From the NCBI GenBank assembly GCA_003222395.1, contig QHWB01000035.1, positions 62,001 through 126,000 of the forward strand: a stretch of DNA of 64,000 nucleotides, read 5' to 3'. A program made the position numbers and the translations under genes. The stretch comes from Acidobacteriota bacterium. Its GTDB lineage: Bacteria; Acidobacteriota; Vicinamibacteria; Vicinamibacterales; CAVVIG01. Shown piece by piece: positions 2,082-63,422 of the stretch. The first letter of the stretch is position 1. The number at the start of each line of letters is the position of its first letter. The notes beneath the pieces were generated by a model, which saw only the letters and a list, made by a program, of their open reading frames with translations, was not told where the DNA came from and made no database searches.

Positions 2082-2098
2082 GGTCAAGGAGCCACGTT

Positions 2099-2935: not shown

Positions 2936-2950
2936 CGGTCAGAAGGAGCC

Positions 2951-4375: not shown

Positions 4376-5952
4376 TGCGCACGACTGAGGGACAAATCGG
4401 GGCGCCGCAAGACGAAACGCTTGCGGTTGCCCGAAATGTCTCGACCCGCTATCTGGCCATCGCTGCCGAAATGGCCATCGGGATCCTCGTGCTTCCGTTC
4501 AACGTCGCGCACCTCGGCACGGCCGCCTACGGACTGTGGATGTTGACGACATCGATCACGGCGTATTTTTCGGTGCTCGACCTCGGATACTCCGGAGCAC
4601 TCGTGAAGTTCGTCGCCCAGTACCGGGCGCGGCGCGATCCGCGCGCACTCAACGAAATCCTGAGCACGACCTTTTATCTCTTCACTGCGTTCGGCATCAT
4701 CGCGTACCTCGTCGCCGTCGTCGTCGCATTGTTCCTCGGCCGCCTCTTTCATCTGTCCCCTGAGCAAATCCACCTCGGTCGAATTGTCTTGCTCATCGTA
4801 AGCGTCAATGTCGCAGCCGGGATGGCGTTCACCGTGTTCGGCGGTGTGATCAACGGCTTCCAGCGGTACGACGTGAACAATATCGTGGGCACGATCAGCG
4901 CGGTGGTCGCCGCCATCGTCAACGTGCTGGTGCTGATAAGCGGATACGGCCTCGTCGAGCTCGTTGCCGCGACGACGGCCGTACGGCTGCTCACCTATTG
5001 GGTGTACCGGGCGAACGCCTACCGCGTCTTCCCGGGGTTGCGTATCCAGTGGAAGCTGTCGAGCCTTGCGCGGCTTCGGGAGATGACCGGGTTCAGCATG
5101 TACATGGCGCTCATCACATGGGCGAACAAACTGAACTACTCGGTCGATGCGCTCGTCATCGGGGCATTCATGGACATCAGCGCCGTGGCGGTTTGGGCGG
5201 TAGGCCAGCGTCTGGCTGAAACCACGCAGCGAATGACGAATCAGCTGAACGATGTGCTCTTCCCCACGGTCGTTGACAACGACACGGCACGTCGACACGG
5301 CCGCCTGCAGCGAATTTTCCTCGTCGGCACGCGCCTGTCGCTCGCCACGGTGCTGTCGATTGGCGGCTCCCTCATCCTCATGGCGAAGCGACTCGTCCAC
5401 GCGTGGGTCGGCGCCGAATTCGACGGCAGCGCCGTGGTGGTCCAGTTGCTCACCTTGAGCGTGATCGCGCGGGTCGGGGGTGCCACGGCCGGCACCGTCC
5501 TCAAAGGCGCCGGACGCCACCGCCTGGTCGCGTTTGCGAACATCGTCACGGCCATCGCGAACCTCGTGCTGAGCATCGCCCTTGTCCGCCGGCTCGGACT
5601 TGAAGGCGTGGCAATCGGCACAGTGGTTCCGGTCGCGGCGCTCGCTACGTTCGTGCTGTTCCCGGCCGGATGTCGCCGAGTGCGGCTGACCGTCTGGCGC
5701 GGATTCGTCGAGGCCGTGTGGCCCGCCGTCTGGCCCGCGGCGTTGATGGCCATTTACGTCGCGGCGACGCACGTGTTCATCCCCGACTCACTCGTTGCCG
5801 TCGGCGCCGAGATGATCTCGGCTGTGGTGGTCTACGCGATTGCGTTCCTCCTCGGCATCAGCCACGACGAGCGTCGGTTCTACGTCTCGAAGCTCGCCCA
5901 GATGGGCGGACGGCTGCGTCCGCGCGCGGCGGCCGTGTCGGAGGGTGCATGA
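4375..5952 (+). CDS. Wzx-type oligosaccharide flippase (first of three)
   Basis: 525 residues, almost entirely hydrophobic, with about 12-14 predicted transmembrane helices and the N-terminal polysaccharide-synthase/MATE-like pattern (VLPFNVAHLGTAAYGLWMLTTSI, YFSVLDLGYSGALVKFVAQYRA). Family role: translocates the undecaprenyl-linked repeat unit across the inner membrane. The ATG at 4375 overlaps the TGA of the preceding gene (TGATG); the reading frame extends far upstream, but that part overlaps the sugar transferase and is not credible. Its stop overlaps the next start by 4 bases. Confidence 0.88.
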   Translation: MRTTEGQIGAPQDETLAVARNVSTRYLAIAAEMAIGILVLPFNVAHLGTAAYGLWMLTTSITAYFSVLDLGYSGALVKFVAQYRARRDPRALNEILSTTFYLFTAFGIIAYLVAVVVALFLGRLFHLSPEQIHLGRIVLLIVSVNVAAGMAFTVFGGVINGFQRYDVNNIVGTISAVVAAIVNVLVLISGYGLVELVAATTAVRLLTYWVYRANAYRVFPGLRIQWKLSSLARLREMTGFSMYMALITWANKLNYSVDALVIGAFMDISAVAVWAVGQRLAETTQRMTNQLNDVLFPTVVDNDTARRHGRLQRIFLVGTRLSLATVLSIGGSLILMAKRLVHAWVGAEFDGSAVVVQLLTLSVIARVGGATAGTVLKGAGRHRLVAFANIVTAIANLVLSIALVRRLGLEGVAIGTVVPVAALATFVLFPAGCRRVRLTVWRGFVEAVWPAVWPAALMAIYVAATHVFIPDSLVAVGAEMISAVVVYAIAFLLGISHDERRFYVSKLAQMGGRLRPRAAAVSEGA

Positions 5953-6746
5953 GAGCCGTCATCCTCGCGGCCGGCAGAGGAGGACGCCTGCGCGGCGTGA
6001 CCGGAGCGCTCCCGAAGTGTCTCGCCCGCGTCGGCTCGTCCACGCTGCTCGAACGGCAGGTTTCGACGTTGCGCGCGTGCGGCATCGAGGACGTGACCGT
6101 CGTGGCTGGATATCGCGCGAGCGACGTCCGCCGCGTCTGCGGCCGCCGCATCCGGCTGGTCGACAATCTCCGGTTCGCGTCCACCAACAGCTTGTACTCG
6201 TTGTGGCTCACGCGTGCCCTGCTCACCGACGGTTTCGTGGTTCTCAACAGCGACGTGCTCTTTTCACGCCAACTGCTCGAAGACCTATTGACGGCGCGCT
6301 ACGACGACGCACTTCTGGTGGCGGCTCGCGGCGCGCGGGAATATTCCGACGAAGAGATGAAAGTGCGAATCCGCGGCGGGCGGATCGTCGCGATTTCGAA
6401 GAGCCTCGAGCCCGCCGACGCGGACGGCGAGAACGTCGGCATCGGAAAATTCGGCCGCGACGGCGCTGGCGTGCTCATCGATGAGATGAACCGCCTGATT
6501 ACCCGCGGGGCCCTTCGCGAATGGTTGCCGGCCGCTTTCGCCGCGTTCGCCCGGCGCCGTGCGCTCTGGGCGGTCGAGAGTCGCGGCTTTCCGTGGATTG
6601 AAATCGATTTTCCTGAAGATTATTGGCGCGCGTGCGGAGAGGTCCTGCCCGCCATCGATGCGCTCGACAGCCCTCGGTCTCAAACGCCAATCGCTGCGCG
6701 CGGTGCGTCCACCGCCGCCACCGGGAGAACGGTCCATCATGTATGA
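5949..6746 (+). CDS. Sugar/phosphocholine-type nucleotidyltransferase (LicC-like)
   Basis: 265 residues with an N-terminal NTP-transferase fold: MRAVILAAGRGGRL is the nucleotide-binding loop, LPKCLARVG the conserved Lys region and LNSDVLF the metal-binding Asp. The segment RFASTNSLYSLWLTR and the ending GFPWIEIDFPEDYWRA resemble the phosphocholine cytidylyltransferase (LicC) branch rather than RmlA or GalU. The product may therefore be a CDP-linked alcohol such as CDP-choline or CDP-glycerol, which would fit the CDP-glycerol transferase domain encoded at 12465-14699; this link is an inference. It starts inside the flippase stop (ATGA) and overlaps the next gene by 8 bases. Confidence 0.75.
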   Translation: MRAVILAAGRGGRLRGVTGALPKCLARVGSSTLLERQVSTLRACGIEDVTVVAGYRASDVRRVCGRRIRLVDNLRFASTNSLYSLWLTRALLTDGFVVLNSDVLFSRQLLEDLLTARYDDALLVAARGAREYSDEEMKVRIRGGRIVAISKSLEPADADGENVGIGKFGRDGAGVLIDEMNRLITRGALREWLPAAFAAFARRRALWAVESRGFPWIEIDFPEDYWRACGEVLPAIDALDSPRSQTPIAARGASTAATGRTVHHV

Positions 6747-8112
6747 ACGGTTTTACAACCTGCGCGAGAGGCCCTTCTCGCTCAGTCCAGACCCTGACTA
6801 TCTCTATCTAAGCCGGGTTCATCGCGAGGCTCTGGGATACCTGCGTTACGGCATCGAAGGGCACGCCGGCTTCGTCGTGATCACCGGCGAGATCGGCTGC
6901 GGCAAAACAACGCTGCTGCAGACGATGCTGCGCAATCTCGACCGCCAAACGTCGGTCTCACGCCTGGTGAACACGATGCTCGACGCGCGCGAGCTGCTCG
7001 AGGCCGTCATGATCGACTTCGGCCTGGACCCCGGGCAGGGCCGCAGCAAACCGCTGCTGCTTCGCGATCTCGCCCAGTTCCTCGTGGATCAGCGAACGGC
7101 CGGCCGGCTCGCACTGCTCGTCATCGACGAGGCCCAAAATCTCAGCTTGTCTGCCCTCGAAGAAGTTCGCATGCTGTCGAACCTCGAAACGGAAAAGTCG
7201 AAGCTGATTCAAATTCTGCTGGTCGGACAACCGAACCTGCGCGAAGTGCTCGCACGTCCCGAGCTCGAGCAACTGCGGCAGCGCGTCACCGTGAGCTATC
7301 ACCTCCAGCCACTCGACATCGATGAAACAGCCGCGTACGTCAATCACCGGCTGCAGCGCGCCGCCATCGGCGCACCGCTCGAGTTCTCGCGCGCCGTCAC
7401 CGACGTCATCCATCAGTACAGCTGTGGGATTCCGCGAAAGATCAATATCATCGCCGACGCGATGCTGCTGTTCGGATACGGCGAGGAACGTCACGTGATC
7501 GACATCACGTTGACGAAGGAGGTCATCGACGAACTGACGTCGATGGGTGTACTCGCGGCCGCCACCCCCCCACGCGTTGGCGCGTCATCCGAGGCCACAG
7601 CACCAGCCGCCGAGCCGGTATCGCCGGGGGCGGCAACTCCAGCTCCTGCGGCGGCCGCATCCCTGGAAGGGGCAGCGCTCGCGACCCCTTCGATGTCGGC
7701 GGCGCCAGTTCAGGCTGGGGCCGCGGCCGCCGCCGCCCTGCCGGCGGCGACGATGACAGCACCACTTGCGCCGATGTTGCATGACGGGGAACTGCATGCG
7801 CGCGAGATCCGTCTGGCCGAGCGCGAGCGACAGATCGCCGAGAAGGAGCGGGTTCTGAAGGAGAGTTATCGGCTCCTTCGCGACGTCCGGACGGCTCCCG
7901 TCACGCAACCCCCATGGCCGCCGGCAAGGCCGGCAGCCGACGGCAAGGCTGCGGCCGCGGCTGCCGTGTCGCGTGCGAGCTACGAAGGCGCCACGTCATC
8001 GTCCCACAAAATATCCCACGAATCCTTGCGTGGTCCGGAAGGCTTCTGGACGCGCCTGCGCCGCGGTTTGTTCGGCGCGGCGAAACCTGTGGTCGAGGAC
8101 TGGAGGTTCTGA
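6739..8112 (+). CDS. Exosortase-locus AAA ATPase (ExeA-like, PEP-CTERM locus subfamily)
   Basis: 457 residues. The first 265 or so form an ExeA/GspA-type AAA ATPase: MYERFYNLRERPFSLSPDP is the diagnostic opening, Walker A is GEIGCGKTT (about 51-59), Walker B LLVIDEAQ (about 128-135), and ILLVGQPNLREVL and GIPRKINIIADAML are typical. Members in exosortase loci (TIGR03015) are regular companions of the EPS genes; their exact role is unproven, possibly peptidoglycan or export-site related. Unusually, the remainder is a long Ala/Pro-rich low-complexity tail (about 275-345), a short charged coiled segment (EIRLAERERQIAEKERVLK) and a basic C-terminus. The ATG at 6739 was chosen for the conserved opening; it overlaps the preceding gene by 8 bases. 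Confidence 0.88.
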   Translation: MYERFYNLRERPFSLSPDPDYLYLSRVHREALGYLRYGIEGHAGFVVITGEIGCGKTTLLQTMLRNLDRQTSVSRLVNTMLDARELLEAVMIDFGLDPGQGRSKPLLLRDLAQFLVDQRTAGRLALLVIDEAQNLSLSALEEVRMLSNLETEKSKLIQILLVGQPNLREVLARPELEQLRQRVTVSYHLQPLDIDETAAYVNHRLQRAAIGAPLEFSRAVTDVIHQYSCGIPRKINIIADAMLLFGYGEERHVIDITLTKEVIDELTSMGVLAAATPPRVGASSEATAPAAEPVSPGAATPAPAAAASLEGAALATPSMSAAPVQAGAAAAAALPAATMTAPLAPMLHDGELHAREIRLAERERQIAEKERVLKESYRLLRDVRTAPVTQPPWPPARPAADGKAAAAAAVSRASYEGATSSSHKISHESLRGPEGFWTRLRRGLFGAAKPVVEDWRF

Positions 8113-8118
8113 ATTTCC

Positions 8119-9498
8119 ATGTCATCACCTGCGCAACAGCTGTTGAATCACATTCAGACGCGACGCGCGCGCGTCGGCGTCATCGGCCTCGGATACGTCG
8201 GCCTGCCCCTCGCCGTCGAGTTTGCGCGAAACGGATTCGCCACGACGGGAATCGACCTCGACAGCCGCAAGATCGAGTCGATCGGCCGGGGGACGTCTTA
8301 CATCCCCGACGTCCCGAGCGCGGAGGTCGCTCGCCTCGTCAGCAATCGACAGCTTCGGGCGACGGCCGATTTCTCCGCCATCGCCACGCTCGACACGATC
8401 AACATCTGCGTGCCGACGCCGCTGCGGAAAACGAAAGACCCCGACATGTCCTACATCGTGTCGGCCGTCGAAGCCGTCGCGGCACACCTTCACGCGGGAA
8501 TGCTGATCGTCCTCGAATCCACCACCTATCCGGGGACGACAGAGGAACTGGTCCGGCCGATGCTCGAGGCAACTGGTCTCAGAGCCGGTGTCGATTTCTT
8601 TCTCGCGTTCTCGCCTGAGCGCGTCGATCCGGGCAATCCGAAATTCAACACGCACAACGTCCCGAAAGTCGTCGGCGGCATCGATGCGGAGTCGACCGAG
8701 CTCGCGGCGGCACTCTACGCTGCGGCGATCGCGACCATCGTGCCGGTCGGTTCCACCCAGGTCGCCGAGATGGTGAAGTTGCTCGAGAATACGTTCCGCG
8801 CCGTGAACATCGGCCTCGTCAACGAGATTGCGCTGATGTGCGACCGGCTCGGAATCGACGTGTGGGAAGTGGTGCGAGCGGCGGCGACCAAGCCGTTCGG
8901 CTTCATGCCGTTCTATCCCGGTCCGGGTCTGGGCGGTCACTGCATCCCGATCGATCCGTTCTACCTGTCATGGAAGGCAAAGCAGAGTGGATTCGATCCC
9001 AGGTTCATCGAGCTCGCCGGTCAGATCAACGCGTCGATGCCGCACTTCGTCGTCGACAAGATCGCGGACGCCCTGAACCGGCACCGCAAGCCGCTGAACG
9101 GGTCGACGGTGCTCGTGCTCGGCGTGGCGTACAAGCGAGACATCGACGACATCCGCGAGTCGCCGTCGCTCGACGTGATGACACTGCTTCACCGCAAGGG
9201 CGCAACGGTGCTGTACGCCGATCCGCACGTGCCGACGGTGTCGGCGCGCAGCTGGTCTGGCGGCTTCGAGCTGCACGGTGAGACGATCACGCCGGAATCG
9301 CTGACGCAGGCCGACTGCGTCGCGATTCTGACTGATCACCAGGCGGTGGACTACGGCATGGTGCTTCGGTCGGCACGGCTCATCGTGGATACACGCAACG
9401 CCGTTGCGGCTCAGCATCCGAAGGTCCTGAAGCTGGGGGCGCCGAGTGCGGCGCTCGATTCCGCTGCGGCCGTGCCGGTCGAGAAGGCGGTGGCGTAG
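8119..9498 (+). CDS. UDP-GlcNAc/UDP-ManNAc-type nucleotide-sugar 6-dehydrogenase (WbpA/WecC family)
   Basis: 459 residues, the usual length. N-terminal Rossmann fold GVIGLGYVGLPLAVEF (about 19-34), conserved ESTTYPGTTEE and FSPERVDPGN segments, and a C-terminal domain with the catalytic cysteine in GPGLGGHCIPIDPFY (Cys275). GVAYKRDIDDIRESP is the typical C-terminal NAD-domain motif. The family oxidises the C6 hydroxyl of a UDP-amino sugar with two NAD+ to a UDP-uronate. SPERVDPGN and the YKRDIDDIRESP motif favour the N-acetylated sugar branch over UDP-glucose dehydrogenase. The product would make the EPS acidic; amidation by the two amidotransferases at 58308 and 61476 may then mask the carboxylate (inference). 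Confidence 0.9.
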   Translation: MSSPAQQLLNHIQTRRARVGVIGLGYVGLPLAVEFARNGFATTGIDLDSRKIESIGRGTSYIPDVPSAEVARLVSNRQLRATADFSAIATLDTINICVPTPLRKTKDPDMSYIVSAVEAVAAHLHAGMLIVLESTTYPGTTEELVRPMLEATGLRAGVDFFLAFSPERVDPGNPKFNTHNVPKVVGGIDAESTELAAALYAAAIATIVPVGSTQVAEMVKLLENTFRAVNIGLVNEIALMCDRLGIDVWEVVRAAATKPFGFMPFYPGPGLGGHCIPIDPFYLSWKAKQSGFDPRFIELAGQINASMPHFVVDKIADALNRHRKPLNGSTVLVLGVAYKRDIDDIRESPSLDVMTLLHRKGATVLYADPHVPTVSARSWSGGFELHGETITPESLTQADCVAILTDHQAVDYGMVLRSARLIVDTRNAVAAQHPKVLKLGAPSAALDSAAAVPVEKAVA

Positions 9499-9503
9499 CG
9501 GCC

Positions 9504-10700
9504 ATGGTGTCGGTGTTCTGGATCTCGTTCGCGATCGTCGTCTATGTGTACGTCGGCTACCCGGCGCTGCTCTTGGCGTGGGCCCGGTTGCGTTCGCGCG
9601 ACGTCGTCCGCCTGCCGGGGGCCGCTGCGCCTGGTGTGTCGATCGTGATCGCGGCGCGCAACGAGGGACAGCGGCTCGCGAACCGGATCGACAATCTCCT
9701 GCAGCTCGAATATGGAGGCGACCGCCAGATCATCGTCGTGTCGGACGGCTCGACCGACAACACGCTCGAAGTGCTCGCCAACTACCGTGGTTCCGTCGAC
9801 ATCGTGGTGGTCGATGCGGGCGGCAAAGCTGTCGCGCTGAACGCCGGCGTCGCGCGCGCCCGGCACGACATCATTGTCTTCGCGGATGCGCGCCAGGCGT
9901 TCGCGAGCGATGCGCTCATCGAACTGACGGTACCGTTTGACAACCCGCGCGTGGGCGCGGTCACGGGCGAACTGCTCCTCGACTGCGAGTCGCCAGGCCG
10001 GCGACAAGCCGACCGGCGCACGAGCGGCGCAAACACGCCAACTGGCGCGGATCGACGCGCCACGGCCGATCGCCGTCTCACCGTCGAATCGACGATCGCC
10101 GACGGCGTCGGTCTGTATTGGCGGTACGAGAAGCAGATCCGCCGATACGAGAGCGCCGTCGGCTCGACGCTTGGTGCCACGGGCGCGATCTATGCGATGC
10201 GGCGGTCGTTGTGGCTGCCGTTGCCCCCCGACACGATCCTCGACGATGTGCTCGTGCCAATGCGCGTAGTGCTGGCGGGCTATCGGACGGTGTTCAACGA
10301 GAAAGCGCGTGCATTCGACCGCGTCGCGCCGGATGCCGAGGCGGAGATAACCCGGAAGGTGCGGACGCTTGCCGGGAATTTCCAGATCCTGACGCTGGAG
10401 CCGCGGCTGCTGCTGCCGTGGCTCAACCCCGTCTGGTTTCAGTACGTATCTCACAAGATCGGACGCCTCCTAGTGCCGTACGCAATGCTGGTGCTAATAG
10501 GGTCGAGCATCACGGTCGCGGATCGATCCAGTGTCTACGCCGTCGCCCTTGCCGCGCAGTGCGTGTTCTACCTGCTCGCCGCCTACGGTGCGTGGCTCGA
10601 GCGGCGGGACCGGGTTGCCGCCCGCCGCCTGGCGCCAGCGTGTGCGGCGTCGTGGTCGGCATCGGCGTCGCGCGATCGCGAAGGTGCGCTGAATGCGTGA
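9504..10700 (+). CDS. Membrane glycosyltransferase, family 2 (processive/HAS-like); C-terminus apparently out of frame
   Basis: 398 residues. An N-terminal membrane helix (FWISFAIVVYVYVGYPALLLAW) precedes a GT-A domain: VSIVIAARNEG, VVSDGSTDNT, KAVALNAGVARA, GATGAIYAMRR and the DDVLVPMRVV acceptor motif. A 40-residue Arg/Thr-rich insert follows VTGELLL (about 160-195). Two membrane helices follow (YAMLVLIGSSITVA, YAVALAAQCVFYLLAAYG). The last 30 residues (DRVAARRLAPACAASW...) look unlike the family, which normally ends in one more helix and a short TGRQ-x-TW-like motif. Just such a segment is encoded in the +1 frame at 10693-10827, so a frameshift or split is suspected. It is the last glycosyltransferase before the polymerase. 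Confidence 0.82.
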   Translation: MVSVFWISFAIVVYVYVGYPALLLAWARLRSRDVVRLPGAAAPGVSIVIAARNEGQRLANRIDNLLQLEYGGDRQIIVVSDGSTDNTLEVLANYRGSVDIVVVDAGGKAVALNAGVARARHDIIVFADARQAFASDALIELTVPFDNPRVGAVTGELLLDCESPGRRQADRRTSGANTPTGADRRATADRRLTVESTIADGVGLYWRYEKQIRRYESAVGSTLGATGAIYAMRRSLWLPLPPDTILDDVLVPMRVVLAGYRTVFNEKARAFDRVAPDAEAEITRKVRTLAGNFQILTLEPRLLLPWLNPVWFQYVSHKIGRLLVPYAMLVLIGSSITVADRSSVYAVALAAQCVFYLLAAYGAWLERRDRVAARRLAPACAASWSASASRDREGALNA

Positions 10701-10827
10701 ATCTCGCGCGCCGCGTCAGTCGCTGCTCGAACGCGCGGCCCGAATAGCGTTCACGTTCGTCGTGCTCAATTGCTCCGCCGTCATCGGTCTCTGGTCGGCG
10801 ATGACGCGGAAGAAAGTGTGGCGCTGA
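10693..10827 (+). CDS. 44-residue membrane segment: displaced C-terminus of the preceding GT2 or a small coupled protein
   Basis: ATG at 10693 opens 44 codons ending in TGA, overlapping the GT2 stop by 8 bases in the +1 frame. The product has one hydrophobic helix (IAFTFVVLNCSAVIGLWSAM) followed by TRKKVWR. This resembles the final helix and basic, Trp-containing end usual for HAS-like GT2 proteins, so the simplest explanation is a single extra base near 10693-10699 (for example one of the two A residues at 10692-10693) that split one gene. The alternative is a genuine small membrane subunit translated by coupling; an in-frame TGA sits immediately before the ATG. It ends 3 bases before the next gene. 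Confidence 0.5.
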   Translation: MRESRAPRQSLLERAARIAFTFVVLNCSAVIGLWSAMTRKKVWR

Positions 10828-10830
10828 AGG

Positions 10831-12363
10831 ATGGACTCCAGGCGACGCGTCCCGCCGCTCCGTGTCGTTCGCCCGGCCGAACGCGCGCAGGCATCGCGGG
10901 AGCGGCTCGCGTTCAACTATGGAAGGCCGTCGGTGCCGAGCCGCCAGCTCGTCGAGGCGGTACTGGCGAACGAGGCCGAACCGACCTTCGCAACGGCGGC
11001 TTATGCGGAGCCGCGCGATTGGGGGTATGTCGGTTTGTTCGCCTTCACGGCGGTCCTGCTGCTGCGCCCGCAGGATCAGTTTCCGGTGCTCAGGCCGCTG
11101 CACCTCGCCGAAGTCTGCGCGCTGATTGGCATCGGGCCCATGATGCTGCACCGCTTCGCGCGGCGGCTCCCCGTATTCCGCGTCACTCCGGAGACAGTCG
11201 GGCTCATCGCGTTCGGCCTCGTCATGCTCGCTACCGTGCCGTTCTCCATCTGGCCGGGTGGCGCGCTGTCGGAATTCACCGAGTCGTACCTCAAGATTCT
11301 CGTCGTGTTCGTCCTGATGATGAACACCCTGACGACGCCTCACCGTCTCGAGCGAATCACATGGCTGATCATTCTGTGCGTCGGCTACATCGCAGCGCGC
11401 GGTGTGGTTGACTACGCACGGGGTGTCAACATGGTCGAGAACGGGCGGCTCGCCGGCGCCGTGAGCGGGATTTTCGGCAATCCGAACGACCTCGCGATGA
11501 ACATGGTGACATTCATGCCGGCAGCGGCAATCGTCGCGATCTCGCGGCAGCAGGCGGCGTGGCGGCGTCTCATTGCGGCAGGCATCGTGGCGCTCATGCT
11601 GGCGACCATCGTGTTCACCAAGTCGCGCGGCGGCGTCGTGGGGCTCACGATGATGCTCGCCTCATTCATTGTCCTCGGCGGCAAGGTGCGACGCGGCTTC
11701 GGTGTCATCGCGGTTGCCTGCATCGTCGCCGCGACGCCGTTCATGCCGCCGGCGTTCTGGGCGCGCATGCAGTCGATGTTCGACGAAAAGACGGACAGAC
11801 AACAGTTCACGGGATCGAGCGAAGCGCGGCGCGTCGTGATGATGGAAGGGATCGCGACGTTCGTCGAGCGCCCATTTACAGGGGTGGGCGCCGGTCAGTT
11901 CAAGAACTACAACCCGTCAGGTCGGAAAGAGCGATGGCGCGAAACTCACAACGCGCTGATTCAGGCGGCCGCCGAAACCGGCATCTTCGGCCTTCTCACG
12001 TTCAGCTTCCTCATTTTCCGCGCCGCGGTTGCCGCGGCGGCGACCCGTCGGATGCTGAGCGCACCACGGCGCGCCCGCGCGCCGGATCCGCTCGCGGCCG
12101 TTCTCATGCCGCGCGATCGCGCGTCTTTATACAACCATACGGTCGCGATGACGGCTGGTTTGATCGGCTGGTTCGTGTGCTCGATGTTCGGCTCGATTGC
12201 CTACAATTGGACGTTCTATTACGTCCTCGCTCTTATCGTGGCCGCCCGGGAGATGACGCACGACCGCCTCGTCGCCGCTCACCTGCTCGGTTCGCCCGGT
12301 AAGAAGCCGACGTTCGTACCCGCGGCAAAGTTTTCGCGCAGAGTGGCATCGGGCGTGGCCTGA
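10831..12363 (+). CDS. Wzy/WaaL-type O-antigen polymerase/ligase family protein
   Basis: 510 residues with about 10-12 transmembrane helices after an 80-residue cytoplasmic start. Diagnostic features of the family are FGNPNDLAM, FTKSRGGVVGL, the large periplasmic loop and the RETHNALIQAAAETGIFG motif with its conserved histidine. In an exosortase/Wzx locus it most likely polymerises lipid-linked repeat units (Wzy role) rather than ligating to lipid A. The ATG at 10831 is preceded by GAAGG only a few bases away, so the start could be slightly downstream. It closes the first co-directional block. Confidence 0.86.
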   Translation: MDSRRRVPPLRVVRPAERAQASRERLAFNYGRPSVPSRQLVEAVLANEAEPTFATAAYAEPRDWGYVGLFAFTAVLLLRPQDQFPVLRPLHLAEVCALIGIGPMMLHRFARRLPVFRVTPETVGLIAFGLVMLATVPFSIWPGGALSEFTESYLKILVVFVLMMNTLTTPHRLERITWLIILCVGYIAARGVVDYARGVNMVENGRLAGAVSGIFGNPNDLAMNMVTFMPAAAIVAISRQQAAWRRLIAAGIVALMLATIVFTKSRGGVVGLTMMLASFIVLGGKVRRGFGVIAVACIVAATPFMPPAFWARMQSMFDEKTDRQQFTGSSEARRVVMMEGIATFVERPFTGVGAGQFKNYNPSGRKERWRETHNALIQAAAETGIFGLLTFSFLIFRAAVAAAATRRMLSAPRRARAPDPLAAVLMPRDRASLYNHTVAMTAGLIGWFVCSMFGSIAYNWTFYYVLALIVAAREMTHDRLVAAHLLGSPGKKPTFVPAAKFSRRVASGVA

Positions 12364-12387
12364 GGTCCGCGAACCGGCAAATTCCGA

Positions 12388-12409
12388 CGCAAACGACCGC
12401 GGCGTTGCG
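12388..12409 (+). terminator. Possible intrinsic terminator after the polymerase gene
   Basis: CGCAAACG and CGTTGCG form a 7-bp stem with one bulged A and a 7-base loop, followed by a T-rich stretch (CATTTTCCTT, 12411-12420). The T-rich stretch is also part of the promoter-like element that follows, so one of the two readings may be accidental. Confidence 0.35.
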
Positions 12410-12423
12410 GCATTTTCCTTGCT
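12408..12423 (+). promoter_or_regulatory. Sigma-54 (-24/-12) promoter-like element upstream of the GT2/CDP-glycerol fusion gene
   Basis: CGGCATTTTCCTTGCT has GG at 12409-12410 and GC at 12421-12422 separated by exactly 10 bases, with the TTGCT form of the -12 box. The -24 box is CGGCA instead of TGGCA. Expected transcription start about 12434, giving a 30-base leader to the ATG at 12465. Confidence 0.45.
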
Positions 12424-12464
12424 GACTTGGAAGTCCGTAAGGGTCTCGCAACGACCAAAGACGT

Positions 12465-14699: not shown

Positions 14700-14719
14700 G
14701 AAGCGAGGTCGAAATCATC

Positions 14720-17700
14720 GTGTGTCCTAGGATTGTCCGTTCCTGCTGGTCACGGGGCCGGATCTCCGCTATCGCGTTCGCGATCACATGCCTTGTTGCC
14801 ATCTCGACATCCGCATCAGCTGCGGAGCACATTTACTTTCCCGCCGTCGACAACGTGACTGACGTCCTGGTGGAAAAGATCAGGAACGAAACCGTCCGGG
14901 TCGATCTCTCGTGCTGGTATCTTACCGAGCACGCGATCTCGATCGCGCTGATCAACAAGTACAACCAGGGCGTGCCCGTGCGGCTCCTCGGCGACCGAGG
15001 CTCGATCTTCGAAATCGATCCGCGGACGAAGACCGAATTCTACTGGCTGGCGAGCCAGGGACTGCCGATCCGGCTCCGCTACTATCCGACGTGGTATCCG
15101 GAAATCAACCACTGGAAGATGTCGCTGTTCGTGGGCCAGAAGCTCGTCGCGTTTGGCTCGGCGAATTACACTCCGTTCGAGCTTGCGCCCGCATCGGCGA
15201 CGGATTTCAAGGACGAAACAGTCCTCCTCTCCGACGATTCCGCCCTCGTCGACGCGTTCAAGACGAAGTTCGACCGGATGTGGAACGACACGACGCTCGA
15301 GGCGGACAGCATCAGCGGCAACCCGCCGTACTTCAAGAATTGGGACGACGCATGCGCCAACGAATTTACGGGCAACTGCGCCGACTATCGGACGCTCTAC
15401 CCCAATCCGGTGCCGATGATCATCGACACGAGACGCCTGGAGCCCGACAACTTCACCGATTTGCCAGAAATGGTCTGGGGACAGGGGCCGAAGTTTAACG
15501 ACCGGCTCGTCCAGGAAATCAACCAAGAAACGAATCACGTCGACTTCGTCATCTACCGGCTCACCGTCGACAACATCACCGACGCGCTGCTCAACAGGTT
15601 CACCTCCGGTGTTCCCGTGCGAATCATCATGGAGCCGAACGAGTACTTGAACCGGAAGTGGCCGGAGTTCTGGCTCACGCACGCGAACATGGACAAGTTG
15701 TGGGCGGCGGGTGTCCAAATCAAACAACGTGTCCACAATGGCCTCACGCACATGAAGATGCTCGTCACCTCGACGGTGGCGACCAACGCATCATCGAACC
15801 TCGCCGCGGCGTGGCAGCGCGACCACGATTACTTCGTGCCGGCGGCCACCAAGCCCTTGATCTATCAGGCCATGGCGGACCGGTTCCAGTTCATGTGGAC
15901 CAATTCGGGATTCGGGGATTTCACGCCGCAGCCGCCCGATACGCCGACGCTCGCCTCACCTTCGTCGAACGCGACCAACGTGCCGACGACCACATCACTC
16001 GTCTGGAACCTGACGCCGTTCGCGGTCAGCTACGACGTGTATCTCGGCACGGCGCCGTCGAACATGACGCGCATCGGCAACGTGCCCGCGCAGATGGTGA
16101 ACAGCCCGCCGAGCACGTATTCGTTCACACCGGCGAGTGCGCTGCAACCCGGAACGACGTACTTTTGGAAAGTCGTCGCGCGAACGAACGCGACGCCGGT
16201 GAACCCCGCGCTCGTCGGCGTGTCGTCGGTGTTCACCTTCACGACGGCGGGCGCCGCCGGCCCGCCGGCGGCGCCAACGAGTCCCGCGCCATCGGACGGC
16301 GCAACTGCCGTCAGCACGACGCCGACACTCGGGTGGGCGCCTGGCGGCGTCGGGACGACGTACAACGTCGCCTTCGGCGTGGCGAATCCGCCGCCCACGA
16401 TCGCCACGGGCCTGTCCTCGTCGTCGTACGTGACCGGTTCACTCGCCAGCAAGACGACCTATTTTTGGCGAGTCACCTCGGTGACGAGCGGTGGAAGCAC
16501 TCCGGGTCCGGTCTGGTCATTCACGACCGGTGCCGCGAACGGATCGACGACCGCGTCCGACGTCGTGATTTATGCCTCCGACGTGAATGCGCTTCACGGC
16601 ACGTGGGCCAAGGCCGCCGATCCGACGGCCGCCGACGGCGTCAAGTTGACGAATCCCGACAACGGCGTCGCTGCGTTGGCGAACCCGCTCGCGGTGCCTC
16701 AGAACTACTTCGACGTGTCGTTCGTCGCTCCTGCCGGGACGCGTTATCGCGTGTGGCTGCGTATTCACGCGATCAATGACCTGAAATGGAACGATTCGGT
16801 GTTCGTGCAGTTCTCCGACAGCACGGACGTGACCGGAACACCGGTATACCAAATCGGCACCACGGGCGGACTGTTGGTGAATCTGTGGACGTGCTCCGCT
16901 TGCCAAAGCTTCGGCTGGGGCTGGCAGCGCAATGCCTACTGGCTCGCCGACACCGGAGACGTGTTCTTCCAGAACAGCGGAGCGCACACACTGCGCGTTC
17001 AGATTCGCGAAGACGGCGCGGAAATCGATCAGATCGTCATCAGCCCGACGACGTTCGCCACCAATTCTCCCGGGTCGGTGAGCAACGATTCGACGATTGT
17101 GCCGAAGGCGCCGAGCGCACCGACAGCGCCCTTCTCGCCCGCGCCGGCGAACGGCGCGACGGGCGTCGGGACCAATGCGACGCTGACGTGGAGCACCACA
17201 GGCGCAACGAGCTACGATGTCAACTTCGGCACCAGCAACCAGCCGCCGCAGGTGGTCAGCGGGATCTCCACGGCGTCGTACTCGCCGACGAGCCTTGCGA
17301 ACGGCACGACCTATTTCTGGCAGGTCGTCGCGCGCAATTCAGGCGGCGCGACGACCGGACCCGTGTGGTCGTTCACGACCGCGACCACACCCCCTGCTAC
17401 GCCGACGGCACCCAACCCAGCGACCGGAGCCACGAACGTCGCAACCGACGTGACCCTGACGTGGTCGTCCAGCGGCGCGACTTCGTACGACGTGCTCTTC
17501 GGGTCGAGCGATCCGCCGTCGCAGGTCGCGACCGCTCTGTCGACCGCGTCCTACACACCGGGTCTCGCTGCGGGCACGACGTATTTCTGGCAGATCGTCG
17601 CGCACAACAGCGGCGGCGCGGTCCAAGGCCCGGAGTGGACGTTTACGACCGTCGCCGCGGCGCAGCCGCCGACGGCGCCCGCGGCGCCGACGCCGCCTTC

Positions 17701-18787
17701 GGCGGCGACGGGTGTGAGCACGACGCCGACGCTCTCGTGGACGTCGAGCGGCGCGACGAGCTACGACGTTGCCTTTGGCATGAACAATCCACCACCAGCC
17801 GTCGCGACCAATCAGGCCGCTGCGACATATACGCCGGCGCCGCTCGCAAACGGCACGACGTACTTCTGGCAGATCGTGGCGCGCAACGCAGCGGGGACAA
17901 CGGCGGGACCTGTGTGGTCGTTCACGACAGCCGCAGCAACTCCGCCAGCCGTGCCCAATTCACCGCATCCGGCCGATGGCGCCCTCAACGTCGCTCTCAA
18001 CACAACGCTGACGTGGAGCTCAGCCGGCGCGACGACGTACGACGTAAATTTCGGCACGACAAACCCGCCCGCTCCAGCGGCCACAGCACAGTCGGCAGCG
18101 GCGTACTCGCCGTCGAGCCTTTCCAGCGGAACGACGTACTTCTGGCAGATCGTTGCTCACAGTGGCAGTACGACGACCACGGGACCAGTGTGGTCCTTTA
18201 CGACTTCTGCTTCAGCTACCGTAACTGATGTGGTGATCTACGCGACAGATCTCTCGCCGGATGCGCTCCATGGATCGTGGACAACGGCGAACGATCCGAC
18301 GTCGCCAAATTCAACCAAGCTCGTGACACCGGACAACGGCTGGGCAACGACGAGTGCTCCGCTCGCAGCGCCGGTGGACTACATCGACGTCACTTTCACG
18401 GCTCAAGCGGCCACGCCATATGCGCTGTGGCTGCGGATGAAAGCGTTGAACGACAACAAATTCAACGATTCCGTGTGGGTGCAGTACTCGGACGCGATCG
18501 CAAACGGTGCGCAAGCGTACCCGTTGAGCTCGACGTCGGGCTTGCTCGTGAATCTTGCGACTGACACATCCGCGGTCAGTCTGCACAACTGGGGATGGCA
18601 GAACGGCGCGTACTGGCTCTCACAGGCCACGACGGTGACGTTTGCGACGAGCGGTACGCATACGCTTCGCATACAGGTGCGCGAGGATGGTGTTCAGCTG
18701 GATCAAATTGTGCTCAGTCCCACGACGTATCTGAATACCGCACCCGGCGCTCCGACCTCCGACTCGACTATCGTGCCGAAGCCATGA
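14720..18787 (+). CDS. Secreted multidomain PLD-like protein with six FN3-like repeats and two copies of a recurrent beta module
   Basis: 1355 residues from a GTG at 14720, which has a GAGG ribosome site (14705-14708) and is followed by a signal peptide (ISAIAFAITCLVAISTSASA). Residues about 34-400 are two phospholipase-D-like halves: His131-x-Lys133 followed by FGSAN, and His344-x-Lys346 followed by ASSN. The Asp of HKD is Val138 and Ser351, so the active site is HxK-(G/S)SxN rather than strict HKD. Then come FN3-like domains (about 407-510, 514-607), recurrent module copy 1 (about 614-797), four further FN3-like repeats (798-1165) and module copy 2 (1167-1355). The first copy has a CSAC pair. 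The likely role is secreted phosphodiesterase or polymer-binding; the substrate is unknown. The next gene is its paralogue. Confidence 0.82.
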   Translation: MCPRIVRSCWSRGRISAIAFAITCLVAISTSASAAEHIYFPAVDNVTDVLVEKIRNETVRVDLSCWYLTEHAISIALINKYNQGVPVRLLGDRGSIFEIDPRTKTEFYWLASQGLPIRLRYYPTWYPEINHWKMSLFVGQKLVAFGSANYTPFELAPASATDFKDETVLLSDDSALVDAFKTKFDRMWNDTTLEADSISGNPPYFKNWDDACANEFTGNCADYRTLYPNPVPMIIDTRRLEPDNFTDLPEMVWGQGPKFNDRLVQEINQETNHVDFVIYRLTVDNITDALLNRFTSGVPVRIIMEPNEYLNRKWPEFWLTHANMDKLWAAGVQIKQRVHNGLTHMKMLVTSTVATNASSNLAAAWQRDHDYFVPAATKPLIYQAMADRFQFMWTNSGFGDFTPQPPDTPTLASPSSNATNVPTTTSLVWNLTPFAVSYDVYLGTAPSNMTRIGNVPAQMVNSPPSTYSFTPASALQPGTTYFWKVVARTNATPVNPALVGVSSVFTFTTAGAAGPPAAPTSPAPSDGATAVSTTPTLGWAPGGVGTTYNVAFGVANPPPTIATGLSSSSYVTGSLASKTTYFWRVTSVTSGGSTPGPVWSFTTGAANGSTTASDVVIYASDVNALHGTWAKAADPTAADGVKLTNPDNGVAALANPLAVPQNYFDVSFVAPAGTRYRVWLRIHAINDLKWNDSVFVQFSDSTDVTGTPVYQIGTTGGLLVNLWTCSACQSFGWGWQRNAYWLADTGDVFFQNSGAHTLRVQIREDGAEIDQIVISPTTFATNSPGSVSNDSTIVPKAPSAPTAPFSPAPANGATGVGTNATLTWSTTGATSYDVNFGTSNQPPQVVSGISTASYSPTSLANGTTYFWQVVARNSGGATTGPVWSFTTATTPPATPTAPNPATGATNVATDVTLTWSSSGATSYDVLFGSSDPPSQVATALSTASYTPGLAAGTTYFWQIVAHNSGGAVQGPEWTFTTVAAAQPPTAPAAPTPPSAATGVSTTPTLSWTSSGATSYDVAFGMNNPPPAVATNQAAATYTPAPLANGTTYFWQIVARNAAGTTAGPVWSFTTAAATPPAVPNSPHPADGALNVALNTTLTWSSAGATTYDVNFGTTNPPAPAATAQSAAAYSPSSLSSGTTYFWQIVAHSGSTTTTGPVWSFTTSASATVTDVVIYATDLSPDALHGSWTTANDPTSPNSTKLVTPDNGWATTSAPLAAPVDYIDVTFTAQAATPYALWLRMKALNDNKFNDSVWVQYSDAIANGAQAYPLSSTSGLLVNLATDTSAVSLHNWGWQNGAYWLSQATTVTFATSGTHTLRIQVREDGVQLDQIVLSPTTYLNTAPGAPTSDSTIVPKP
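17110..18215 (+). repeat. Four tandem FN3-like domain repeats inside the first PLD-like gene
   Basis: Four units of about 265-280 bp repeat the pattern NGATGV..TLTWSS.GATSYDV.FGT..PP, then YTP..LANGTTYFWQIVAR and GPVWSFTT. Units run approximately 17110-17385, 17390-17655, 17660-17930 and 17935-18215. Their high mutual similarity suggests recent internal duplication or gene conversion. Confidence 0.8.
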
Positions 18788-18821
18788 CGTAACGGCCCGG
18801 CAGGAGGAACGAGGCCACAAC

Positions 18822-18857
18822 GCCTGACCGGCGCACGGGGCGGAACGCCGGTCGGGC
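18822..18857 (+). terminator. Strong hairpin between the two PLD-like genes
   Basis: GCCTGACCGGCG and CGCCGGTCGGGC pair over 12 bp with one G-U wobble around a 12-base loop. No U-tract follows, and it ends only 6 bases before the ribosome site of the next gene, so it could terminate, attenuate or stabilise the transcript. Confidence 0.45.
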
Positions 18858-18875
18858 ATATGTGGAGGCGTACTC

Positions 18876-21614
18876 GTGGGACCGATCATCCGCCCAACCG
18901 CAGGTCGCCTTGGATCCTGGCGAACGCTGCTCGGAGTTCTGTTTTGCGCGACGGTCGCATCAACCGCAGCTGCCGCCGATCAGATTTACTTTCCAGCCGT
19001 CGATAACGTCGCAAACATCCTCGTACAGAAAATCAACGCGGAGACGGTGCGCGTGGACCTGTCGTGCTGGTACCTCACCGAGCACGCGATCTCGATCGCG
19101 CTGATCAATAAGTACAAGTCTGGCGTTCCCGTCCGCCTCCTCGGAGACCGCGGATCCATTTTCGAGATCGATCCGCGCACCAAGAATGAGTTCTATTGGC
19201 TCGCCAGCCAAGGACTTCCCATTCGCCTGCGGTTCAATCCGATTTGGTACCCGGAGATCGATCACTGGAAGGCATCGATCTTCGTCGGCCAGAACACCGT
19301 GTCGTTCGGATCAGCGAACTACACGCCCTTCGAGCTCGCGCCGGCGTCGTCGGTCGACTACAAGGACGAGACGGTGCTCTTTACGGACGATCCGGTGATC
19401 GTCAATGCCCTCAAGACGAAGTTCGATCGATTCTGGAACGACACGACTCCCGAACCCGAGAGCATCGCCGGCAACCCACCCTACTTCAAGAACTGGAACG
19501 ATGCCTGTACGGCGGAGCCGACTGGCAACTGTTCCGACTACCGGACTCTCTATCCGAATCCGACGCCGATGGTCATCGACACACGGCGCCTCGAGCCCGA
19601 CAACTTCACCGACGTGCCGGACATCGTCTGGGGACAGGGGCCGAAGTTCAACGACCGGCTCGTACAGGAGATCGACAACGAATCTTCGCTAATCCAGTTC
19701 GTCATCTATCGGCTGACGGTCGACAACATCACGCAGGCACTGCTCAACCGGTTTCATGCAGGAGTTCCGGTCCGCCTCATCATCGAACCGAACGAGTACT
19801 TGAATCGAAAGTGGCCGGAGTTCTGGATCAGCCACGCGAACTTCGACAAGTTGTACGCGGCCGGCGTTCCAATGAAGCAGCGTAAGCACAGTGGCCTGAC
19901 GCACATGAAGACGCTGGTCACGTCGACGGTCGCGAGCAATGCGTCGTCGAATTACGCGGCCGCATGGCAGCGCGACATCGACTACTTCGTACCGGCGGCG
20001 ACGAAGCCCACCATCTACAACGCGCTCAAGAACCGCGTGACGTTCATGTGGAACGACACGGTCGGGTTCGAACCGTTCAAGCCGCTGCCTCCGGACGATC
20101 CGACGCTCGCGAGCCCGGCCTCCGGCACGACCGCCGTCGCAACGACGTCGAGCCTCGTGTGGAACATCACCGTGTTCGCGGTCAGCTACGACGTGTACCT
20201 CGGGACGTCGCAGTCGAACATGACGCTCGTCGGCAACGTGCCGGCGCAACTGGTCAACAGTCCACCGAGCACGTATTCGTGGACGCCGTCGACGCCGCTT
20301 CAGACGGGCACGACGTATTTCTGGAGAGTGATCGCACGTACGAATGCGACACCGGTGAACCCGTCGCTAGTCGGCACATCGCCGATCTGGTCATTCACGA
20401 CGGCCGGCACGGCAGCGAACCCACCACCGCCGCCGCCGCCGCCGCCGCCGCCCCCCAGCGGAACGCTGCCGTCGCCATGGACAACGCAAGACGTCGGCTC
20501 GACGGGCATCGCCGGTAGCGCCTCGGCATCGAACGGCACATTCACGGTCAGCGGATCCGGCGCCGATATTTGGGGCACGAGCGATGCGTTCCGGTATGTC
20601 TTCCAGCCGATGAACGGCAGCGTCCAAGTTGTCGCGCGTGTCACGTCGCTGCAGAACACGCACGCGTGGGCGAAGGCTGGCGTCATGATGCGCGAATCGC
20701 TCTCCGCAACGGCGGCCCACGTGATTCTGGACGTGACGCCGAGCGGGACGATCGAGTTCATGACGCGGTCATCGACCGGGGCAGCGACGACGCTGATCAC
20801 GTACGGATCACAAGCGCCGCCGGCATGGCTGAAGCTCTCGCGCAGCGGAACGATCGTGAGCGCGTCCGTCTCGGCGAACGGCTCGACGTGGACGGCACTC
20901 GGCACGACGACCTTCGCGCCGGCCAGCGCGAACATCGGGTTGATCGTGACCAGCCACGACACCACGACGTTGAACACGGCGACGTTTGACAATATTTCCG
21001 TCGGCACCGTCTCGTCGCCACCGCCACCACCACCGCCGCCGTCGTCGAGCGGCAACATCGTGATTTATGCGAGCGACATCGCGGCGGCGGCGCGCCACGG
21101 CTCCTGGACCATTGCGTCCGATCCGGCGTCACCGAACGGAACGAAGCTCGTGACGCCAGACAACGGTGTGGCGAACACGAGCAGCGCCCTCGCGGCGCCG
21201 GCCGATTACGTCGACGTGACCTTCAACGCGAGCGCTGGAACGCCGTACACGCTATGGCTTCGGCTGCAGGCGCTCGGCAGCTCGAAGCTCAACGACTCGT
21301 TGTGGGTGCAATTCTCCGATGCGTCGACGAACGGTGCGCCCGTGTACCCGCTGAACAGCGCTTCTGCATTGCTTGTGAATCTGGCGACCGACTCCACCGC
21401 CGGTAGCCTGTCCGGGTGGGGATGGCAGAACACCGCCTACTGGCTGCAACAACCGGTGACAGTCACGTTCTCTACGGCAGGCAGCCACACAATGCGCATT
21501 CAGGTTCGGGAGGACGGCGTTCAACTGGATCAGATCGTGTTGAGCCCGTCGCAATATCTCACGACGGCACCCGGGACGGTATCCAACGACCGAACGATCG
21601 TGCCCAAGCAGTAA
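18876..21614 (+). CDS. Secreted PLD-like protein, paralogue of the preceding gene, with FN3, a LamG/DUF1349-like domain and the recurrent module
   Basis: 912 residues from a GTG with GGAGG at 18864-18868 and a signal peptide (LLGVLFCATVASTAAA). Residues about 35-405 match the preceding protein almost segment for segment: His130-x-Lys132 with FGSAN and His343-x-Lys345 with ASSN, again without the HKD aspartates. Next are one FN3-like domain (about 406-510), a poly-proline linker, a concanavalin-like domain of DUF1349 type (about 529-711; AWAKAGVMMRESL is typical), a second proline linker and one copy of the recurrent module (about 725-912). The tandem pair clearly arose by duplication, with the C-terminal accessory domains later exchanged. 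Probably secreted to act on or bind the EPS or a phosphodiester-containing polymer. Confidence 0.82.
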   Translation: MGPIIRPTAGRLGSWRTLLGVLFCATVASTAAAADQIYFPAVDNVANILVQKINAETVRVDLSCWYLTEHAISIALINKYKSGVPVRLLGDRGSIFEIDPRTKNEFYWLASQGLPIRLRFNPIWYPEIDHWKASIFVGQNTVSFGSANYTPFELAPASSVDYKDETVLFTDDPVIVNALKTKFDRFWNDTTPEPESIAGNPPYFKNWNDACTAEPTGNCSDYRTLYPNPTPMVIDTRRLEPDNFTDVPDIVWGQGPKFNDRLVQEIDNESSLIQFVIYRLTVDNITQALLNRFHAGVPVRLIIEPNEYLNRKWPEFWISHANFDKLYAAGVPMKQRKHSGLTHMKTLVTSTVASNASSNYAAAWQRDIDYFVPAATKPTIYNALKNRVTFMWNDTVGFEPFKPLPPDDPTLASPASGTTAVATTSSLVWNITVFAVSYDVYLGTSQSNMTLVGNVPAQLVNSPPSTYSWTPSTPLQTGTTYFWRVIARTNATPVNPSLVGTSPIWSFTTAGTAANPPPPPPPPPPPPSGTLPSPWTTQDVGSTGIAGSASASNGTFTVSGSGADIWGTSDAFRYVFQPMNGSVQVVARVTSLQNTHAWAKAGVMMRESLSATAAHVILDVTPSGTIEFMTRSSTGAATTLITYGSQAPPAWLKLSRSGTIVSASVSANGSTWTALGTTTFAPASANIGLIVTSHDTTTLNTATFDNISVGTVSSPPPPPPPPSSSGNIVIYASDIAAAARHGSWTIASDPASPNGTKLVTPDNGVANTSSALAAPADYVDVTFNASAGTPYTLWLRLQALGSSKLNDSLWVQFSDASTNGAPVYPLNSASALLVNLATDSTAGSLSGWGWQNTAYWLQQPVTVTFSTAGSHTMRIQVREDGVQLDQIVLSPSQYLTTAPGTVSNDRTIVPKQ

Positions 21615-26972: not shown

Positions 26973-27059
26973 GATGACCCTCGCGACGGCCCGGAAGTGG
27001 GCTCAGCGGTGGAACGCCGCTTCCACTAAGTGGCACGACGGCCGAGCAGAAAGGCGACT

Positions 27060-27785: not shown

Positions 27786-27789
27786 GCAC

Positions 27790-45767: not shown

Positions 45768-45836
45768 CCATGCTCGCCCGGCCACGTTCGCAACGCGCGA
45801 ACGTTCTGGCTCCCCGAAAAAAGCGAGCTGATCGTG

Positions 45837-58257: not shown

Positions 58258-58307
58258 CAGGAGCTCGAAGTTCGGATTTCAGGATCCGGTATCAGGGAAT
58301 TACGCCT

Positions 58308-61474: not shown

Positions 61475-61475
61475 C

Positions 61476-63422
<1,947 letters not shown>

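Follow-up and report, generated by a model that had tools for sequence, protein, structure and literature searches.

The 64,000-nucleotide stretch analyzed here (positions 62,001 to 126,000 of contig QHWB01000035.1, assembly GCA_003222395.1; hereafter the window) carries an exopolysaccharide (EPS) locus of the Wzx/Wzy and XrtA (PEP-CTERM) type from an Acidobacterium. We hold, with slightly better than even confidence, that the locus makes a Wzx/Wzy EPS bearing a phosphate-linked small alcohol and that secreted proteins with phospholipase D-like (PLD) and endonuclease/exonuclease/phosphatase (EEP) folds cut phosphodiesters there. The synthesis half of this idea is supported by genome comparison at the level of sequence, and the remodelling half, which is linked to it by gene neighbourhood, is plausible. 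The host genome has a size of 7.74 Mb, 99.26% completeness and 2.97% contamination; the window belongs to its contig C98 and has a G + C content of 64.2%.

The genes on which a previous sequence-only reading of the window had built such a system were all confirmed. The LicC-like (COG1213-type) nucleotidyltransferase, a proposed CTP:alcohol-phosphate cytidylyltransferase, is encoded at 5949..6746 on the forward strand (265 amino acids; NTP_transf_3, in a Pfam scan that used the longer open reading frame (ORF) 5670-6746). The predicted fusion of a family 2 glycosyltransferase (GT2) with a cytidine diphosphate (CDP)-glycerol phosphotransferase, here termed the TagF-like (Glyphos) domain, is located at 12465..14699 on the same strand (744 amino acids), and both of its Pfam domains were over the cut-off (Glycos_transf_2, 3e-32; Glyphos_transf, 2e-18). 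Directly behind it on the forward strand are the genes of the two secreted PLD-like proteins, namely PLD1 (14594..18787), with two PLDc_2 stretches, fn3-type repeats, and two copies of a module shared by several proteins of the locus, and PLD2 (18876..21614), with two PLDc_2 stretches, a DUF1349-like region, and one shared module. The start codon of PLD1 is uncertain because 106 bases of its ORF lie within the fusion gene; the N-termini of both proteins, judged by eye, are signal-peptide-like. The two secreted EEP-fold proteins are encoded on the reverse strand: EEP1 (39600..42092, with a likely start nearer 41831) has the shared module, a family 6 carbohydrate-binding module (CBM6), and an EEP domain (Exo_endo_phos), and EEP2 (42348..45035) has the shared module, two CBM6, and the same EEP domain.

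The Glyphos half of the fusion scored 66.8 bits against PF04464 (cut-off 22.1) and 68.9 bits in the search of its own genome, and TagF and Cps3D were its sole matches in the PDB at E values up to 1. The His residues of its FHG and KLH motifs, together with the TDHS residues, were invariant in 9/9 relatives. Read as motifs, FHG and KLH resemble WHG and RMH of TagF, which hold the two catalytic His residues of that enzyme. The Glyphos domain is fused to GT2 in the window and in G007, G103, G096, and G104; in G019, G020, G009, G049, G092, G097, G099, and G100 it forms a protein by itself, with two copies in six of these eight genomes. The second PF04464 protein of the host genome (G000:C111:9228-10037; L073:9168-10652) belongs to a separate surface-polysaccharide cluster with Wzt-type ABC genes, in which no gene was called LicC-like within the 40 kb read.

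The sample for comparison consisted of 193 genomes of the same class. Genomes were taken as Glyphos-positive when profile A2 detected Glyphos-domain relatives of the fusion protein in them at E < 1e-140; 13 of the 193 qualified, and the next matches were far weaker, at 1e-13. The co-occurrence counts leave out the weak Glyphos matches of G038, G039, G060, G066, and G090 (E 1e-11 to 1e-13) and LicC-like matches weaker than E 1e-90, apart from that of G092, whose copy belongs to the same locus and is cut by the contig end. Relatives of the PLD proteins were counted at E < 1e-15 and strong EEP matches at E up to 1.8e-41, and loci L088, L089, L091, L093, and L094 were taken as G007, G019, G099, G103, and G092 and counted once each. 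The named relatives with the locus are metagenome-assembled genomes (MAGs) of Acidobacteria, two of which carry the label gp6. On this basis, the LicC-like gene of this locus type was present in 11/13 Glyphos genomes and 3/180 others; PLD relatives were found in 17 genomes (12/13 and 5/180), strong EEP in 24 (13/13 and 11/180), and the shared module in 19 (13/13 and 6/180). The gene set is conserved in other genomes and co-occurs there, which points to more than chance. One-sided Fisher values against Glyphos were ~1e-13 for LicC, 2e-14 for PLD, 5e-14 for EEP, and 5e-16 for the module, in tests that treat related genomes as independent and with profiles (A1-A5) built partly from the genomes counted. 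A comparison within three genera is less exposed to these problems: G019, G020, and G007 have the system, and in the other genome of each pair (G003, G005, and G021, each 96% complete) none of the searches for Glyphos, the LicC-like gene, PLD, and the module gave a match that passed the thresholds, with weaker EEP matches present in G003 and G021. Such weaker EEP matches are common, occurring in at least 100 of the 193 genomes at 1e-12.

In the seven genomes that hold both genes on one contig, the distance between the LicC-like and Glyphos genes was 4.4-6.9 kb; in five of the remaining six (G009, G020, G097, G100, and G104), the Glyphos contig stops before the expected place. The pairing also recurs outside the class. 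In L092, an Acidobacteriales scaffold, the two genes are directly adjacent; a single open frame runs across them, and since this frame passes through 38 N, the reading as a LicC-Glyphos fusion was not adopted and only the adjacency is claimed. In the gammaproteobacterial MAG L095, the genes are 1.7 kb apart. A pair suggested by BLAST in L107 (Aquificota) was dropped, as Pfam assigns the neighbouring gene to GT4. TagD (TIGR01518) was not detected over the cut-off in any of the 13 Glyphos genomes (best score 50 of 165 bits), and none of them has two strong IspD-type genes: one strong IspD (at least 179 bits) was found in ten and none in three, all other matches to the profile reaching at most 42 bits. 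At these scores, the 13 genomes show neither of the donor arrangements of diderm TagF-like capsules, namely TagD or an IspD/TarI-type enzyme beside IspD. Distant LicC-like genes adjoin CDP-OH_P_transf genes in nine of ten archaeal loci, the tenth (L106) beginning inside the gene, and in all five of the loci L165-L169, with one ORF between them in L169; in three of four plasmid records inspected (from 18 matched), a CDP-alcohol phosphatidyltransferase was adjacent or LicD was one gene away. The pairing, these CDP-alcohol-type neighbours of distant relatives, and the absence of TagD over its cut-off suggest that the LicC-like protein is the likely supplier of the donor for the Glyphos domain. 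The same pairing and the same absence favour the earlier claim of CDP-polyol synthesis and transfer to a glycan, although a polyol is not singled out by them.

Three further sets of genes with a LicC-like member were observed. In nine archaeal loci (L096-L104, mostly Archaeoglobales), the LicC-like gene is divergent from the CDP-OH_P_transf gene, and these pairs are candidates for CDP-alcohol-based solute or lipid synthesis; a literature search found no link between them and diglycerol phosphate. The loci L165-L169, from five genomes of the class, hold a four-gene set comprising the LicC-like gene, a CDP-alcohol transferase with an N-terminal extension, a 315-amino-acid protein with no Pfam match, and an LPG-synthase-type membrane protein. 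In L179 (G090:C103, 2599-10351), genes for a PPDK-type kinase, a glutamine amidotransferase, a LicC-like protein, a Glyphos-like protein, and a methyltransferase form a run that we would liken to the phosphoramidate activation genes of Campylobacter, here with a TagF-like partner.

The LicC-like protein of the window has the nucleotidyltransferase fold with the catalytic Arg, Lys, and Asp of the LicC/COG1213 group. Its best PDB relative was LicC (1jyk, E 2.5e-15), followed by the aminoethylphosphonate cytidylyltransferase PntC and, by profile, by inositol-phosphate cytidylyltransferases (IPCT). The structures of CpgD with CDP-glycerate (10WI-10WK, according to PMC13228409) were absent from these PDB matches. 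Among 30 compared proteins from Acidobacteria, archaea, and Gammaproteobacteria, D102 was present in all, and R13 and K23 were present in 29, the remaining protein being truncated there. Residues N80, N100, D102, M137, and K151 are spaced like the residues of CpgD that contact CTP or glycerate, as these are given in PMC13228409. We treat this likeness of the pocket as a hint, as the residues are mostly common to the wider group and were mapped by spacing and not by structure. In ten other loci read on that side (G007, G019, G049, G099, G103, G092, which is cut on the Wzx side, G058, G025, G094, and L090), the LicC-like gene likewise sits between the genes of Wzx and the XrtA ATPase. One set of these loci has a YvcK-type (UDP-GlcNAc-binding) gene that separates the LicC-like gene from that of the ATPase (L091:10813-11892, L072:4029-5117, L173:8680-9789, L162:9618-10946, and L090:4551-5633, the last assigned by position and length only); its assignment to PF01933 “CofD,” with F420-type chemistry, was dropped because NCBIfam gives YvcK.

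Both HxK pairs of the secreted PLD proteins were invariant in 9/9 aligned members, the Asp of the motifs being absent in 8/9 (first) and 9/9 (second), and the AlphaFold model of the PLD region, with a predicted local distance difference test (pLDDT) value of 86, matched PLD structures at E 3e-19. In the EEP domains (PF03372), E42, H134, G169, D170, N172, S238, D239, and H240 were invariant in 8/8 members; we take these to be the catalytic Glu, His, GDxN, and SDH. An EEP gene was located on the Glyphos contig, 1.0-24.9 kb from the Glyphos gene, in nine of the 13 genomes, and a PLD gene was within 0.2 kb of it in three genomes and at 4.1 kb in a fourth. In G099, on a contig other than that of its EPS core, genes for Glyphos, two GT2, EEP, and PLD follow one another in a locus of their own (L171). 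The locus of G019 encodes an extra protein in which a calcineurin-like phosphoesterase domain is joined to the shared module and CBM6.

The shared module has a length of ~185 amino acids and occurs in PLD1 (16562..17107 and 18230..18784) and PLD2 (21057..21608) on the forward strand, in EEP1 (41193..41741) and EEP2 (44397..44942) on the reverse strand, and in a further secreted protein of the forward strand (45834..49130; module at 45924..46475). Seven copies were found genome-wide, six of them within the window; the seventh is on a protein similar to the beta-helix protein of the window. The model, built from the second copy of PLD1, is a jelly roll (pLDDT 89.5), for which Foldseek returned CBM6, CBM35, and CBM36 mixed with domains of a glucanotransferase, Cry proteins, and others, at E values of at least 2e-5 and template modelling scores of ~0.4-0.5. 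Elsewhere the module is joined to subtilase, beta-helix, and FG-GAP proteins and is thus not specific to phosphoesterases; the 20 proteins scanned for this had been picked mostly for lacking PLD and EEP profile hits and so give no base rate, and even among them Exo_endo_phos was matched twice, by L211 over the curated cut-off and by L217 under it. The likeliest role of the module is to direct proteins to a surface glycan, and it would not itself take part in the phosphodiester chemistry. The 45834..49130 protein carries, beside the module, two CBM6 and ~420 C-terminal residues that have no Pfam match, and a relative of its N-terminal part is encoded in the G007 locus.

From the observed genes, domains, linkage, and co-occurrence, we infer the following activities and product. 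The LicC-like enzyme would form a CDP-alcohol from CTP and an alcohol phosphate, in all likelihood a compound with three carbons (glycerol-3-phosphate or phosphoglycerate, for instance). In the cytoplasm, the TagF-like half of the fusion would attach the phospho-alcohol to a sugar in the lipid-linked repeat; this sugar may be the one newly added by the GT2 half of the same protein. The repeat would then take the route established for such gene sets, being flipped by Wzx and polymerized by Wzy before export. Finally, and with weaker grounds, the PLD- and EEP-fold enzymes, tethered to the polysaccharide through the jelly-roll module and CBM6, might cut its phosphodiesters, with coat trimming, cell release, or phosphate recovery as the outcome.

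A number of observations weigh against this scheme, beginning with its extracellular step. The Asp of the HKD motif is present in 1/9 PLD members in the first motif and in 0/9 in the second, and the earlier claim of extracellular remodelling is accordingly favoured by linkage and by the jelly-roll and CBM6 modules but not by the state of the PLD domains. The fold matches of the PLD model include phospholipases D, PssA, the viral F13 protein, and the exonucleases PLD3/4, so that several substrate classes fit these proteins, and the solved EEP relatives include sphingomyelinases and enzymes acting on DNA ends. PLD genes are near Glyphos in just 4/13 genomes, and five genomes have PLD, 11 have strong EEP, and six have the module without a strong Glyphos match; the association of the module with other protein types counts in the same direction. 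It could therefore be supposed that only synthesis takes place, a phospho-alcohol being added to the EPS, and that the PLD and EEP proteins act outside the cell as nucleases (or phospholipases) for a DNA-rich biofilm matrix and simply have the EPS-binding modules in common. PLD3 and PLD4, a weak match to NucT, TDP2 and exonuclease III among the EEP relatives, the strong EEP genes in genomes without a strong Glyphos match, and the distance of most PLD genes from Glyphos agree with such a function. We nevertheless regard it as rather unlikely, given that PLD, EEP, and the module are linked to the Glyphos gene and co-occur with it, that L171 forms a compact Glyphos-GT2-GT2-EEP-PLD locus, and that a third, unrelated phosphoesterase fold bears the same module in G019.

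The scheme is also open to question with respect to the nucleotide and the transferase. The LicC-like enzyme might make CDP-choline, CDP-aminoethylphosphonate, CDP-inositol, or a sugar nucleotide, in which case the decoration, if any, would not be a polyol phosphate. LicC, PntC, and IPCT being its best PDB relatives and the position of LicC-like genes elsewhere near LicD or phosphoenolpyruvate (PEP) mutase (L105) are in line with this; CpgD residues T93 and S170 have no counterpart in the LicC-like protein, and the presence of inositol-1-phosphate synthase in 12/13 Glyphos genomes makes CDP-inositol possible. However, the Pfam scan of 45 window translations showed none of the families of LicD, choline kinase, and PEP mutase, the rest of the genome not having been searched, and five residues are at the contact spacing of CpgD; we consider this alternative less likely than that of nucleases, while glycerate or inositol would fit the sequence data as well as a polyol. 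Least probable of the three, in our judgement, is that the Glyphos half transfers sugars as an ordinary GT-B enzyme, without use of a CDP-alcohol, and that the co-occurrence merely marks one type of EPS locus. Its similarity to TagF is remote (E 1e-5 from a single sequence). The catalytic His residues of TagF are H444 and H584, according to PMC5974469; in unforced MAFFT runs, H444 met FHG in 0/3 and the second, H584, met KLH in 1/3, and a profile search likewise set FHG elsewhere. The equation of FHG with WHG by alignment was withdrawn, since the match had been forced by trimming both sequences at the motif. The co-occurring genes, moreover, are mostly of one locus type in related genomes. Weighing on the scheme in general, gene order in G096 differs and this genome has no PLD, and the LicC-like gene occurs without a strong Glyphos match in three genomes. 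Two of the latter have it on contigs of 4.6 and 8.5 kb; the third, G058, is masked beyond the locus, its contig reading N from 64001 as far as fetched, and the G058 locus was set aside as an example of LicC without Glyphos and counts neither way, yet is kept among the three. Against an ordinary sugar transferase stand the Glyphos match over the Pfam cut-off, the invariance of the HG, KLH, and TDHS residues in nine relatives, the recurrence of the pairing with LicC-like genes outside the class, and the company of EEP and PLD that Glyphos keeps away from the EPS core in L171.

TagF-like capsule polymerases belong to the group 2, ABC-exported capsules, whereas the locus of the window is of the Wzx/Wzy and exosortase type. 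In Gram-negative pathogens, such polymerases (Cps1B, Cps3D, and others) have been published (PMC5974469, PMC8262930); a TagF-like domain is likewise joined to a glycosyltransferase domain there, the glycan is phosphate-linked, and the glycerol-containing systems employ TagD-type GCT enzymes, whereas the candidate donor gene here is LicC-like and no TagD is present over the cut-off. The two solved structures matched by the Glyphos half include one of these polymerases, Cps3D. In Caulobacter, the COG1213/LicC-like enzyme CpgD is described as making CDP-glycerate, the donor of a phospho-group (PMC12275187, PMC13228409). It is thus a LicC-like enzyme for a CDP-activated three-carbon compound, several of whose pocket residues are matched by spacing in the window protein; its product goes to the headgroup of a sphingolipid and not to a polysaccharide as proposed here. 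Among solved structures, pneumococcal LicC comes closest to the LicC-like protein, and LicC and LicD serve the phosphocholine decoration of teichoic acids; the pneumococcal system uses LicD, unlike the window, which has a TagF-like transferase and no LicD among the scanned translations. XrtA/PEP-CTERM loci, as defined by NCBIfam models, share the XrtA-associated ATPase, the EpsB-type transferase, the exosortase, and the PEP-CTERM protein with the window, and LicC-like, Glyphos, PLD, and EEP genes are not known to belong to their usual gene content. GlpQ and PhoD, hydrolases of wall teichoic acid, would be functional counterparts, being phosphodiesterases that a cell encodes and sends out against a phosphate polymer of its own. 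They are different proteins; the domains joined to carbohydrate-binding-type modules in the present loci are PLD, EEP, and, in G019, calcineurin-like.

The sequence-only reading had held the combination not to be described. This can be maintained in part: teichoic-acid-like capsules of diderms made by TagF-like enzymes are already published (PMC5974469), but in the literature searched, including PMC11340318 and PMC1569441, we found no exosortase EPS locus that pairs a LicC-type donor gene with a TagF-like transferase, nor any phosphodiesterases encoded alongside. The new parts are the LicC-type donor gene and the linked phosphodiesterases. A bolder reading, which we put forward tentatively and hold to be possible but on balance doubtful, is that of a diderm EPS system able both to attach a phosphodiester decoration and to take it off again, with a donor enzyme of the CpgD/LicC type, a TagF-like transferase, and secreted phosphodiesterases tethered by the module. 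The CpgD/LicC-type enzyme, and not TagD, would supply a CDP-activated three-carbon compound, and co-inherited unrelated folds (PLD, EEP, and in one relative calcineurin-like) would be responsible for the extracellular turnover of the decoration, which might serve, for instance, to store phosphate or to release the matrix in a controlled way.

If the proposed decoration is real, teichoic-acid-like chemistry would extend to the exosortase-type EPS of Acidobacteria, a large soil phylum, with a donor enzyme from outside the TagD family and a set of extracellular turnover enzymes of its own. Proteins annotated as “phosphocholine cytidylyltransferase family,” “PLD-like,” or “endonuclease/exonuclease/phosphatase” would gain testable substrates, and a phosphate pool in biofilms would be suggested.

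The remaining genes of the window define the type of the locus. The EPS assembly core surrounding the LicC-like gene (639..12363, forward strand) encodes Wzz, a ParA-type ATPase, an EpsB-type sugar transferase, Wzx, a nucleotide-sugar dehydrogenase, a GT2, and Wzy. Within its limits is the XrtA/PEP-CTERM system-associated ATPase (6739..8112, forward strand; TIGR03015, 341.6 bits, cut-off 324.5), and the PEP-CTERM protein, an XrtA-like exosortase, and a DUF3485 protein are encoded at 27030..29252 on the same strand. The exosortase scored 197.9 bits against TIGR02602 (cut-off 105.55) and 204.8 bits against TIGR03109 (XrtA), slightly below the cut-off of 208; the chain-length protein and the amidotransferase also scored below the cut-offs of their XrtA models. 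The XrtA-associated ATPase and the exosortase that mark XrtA exopolysaccharide loci are thus both present. In addition, a Heparinase II/III-type protein and two asparagine-synthase-type amidotransferases are encoded at 54610-58257, 58215-60245, and 61416-63422, which suggests that the EPS may contain amidated uronic acids.

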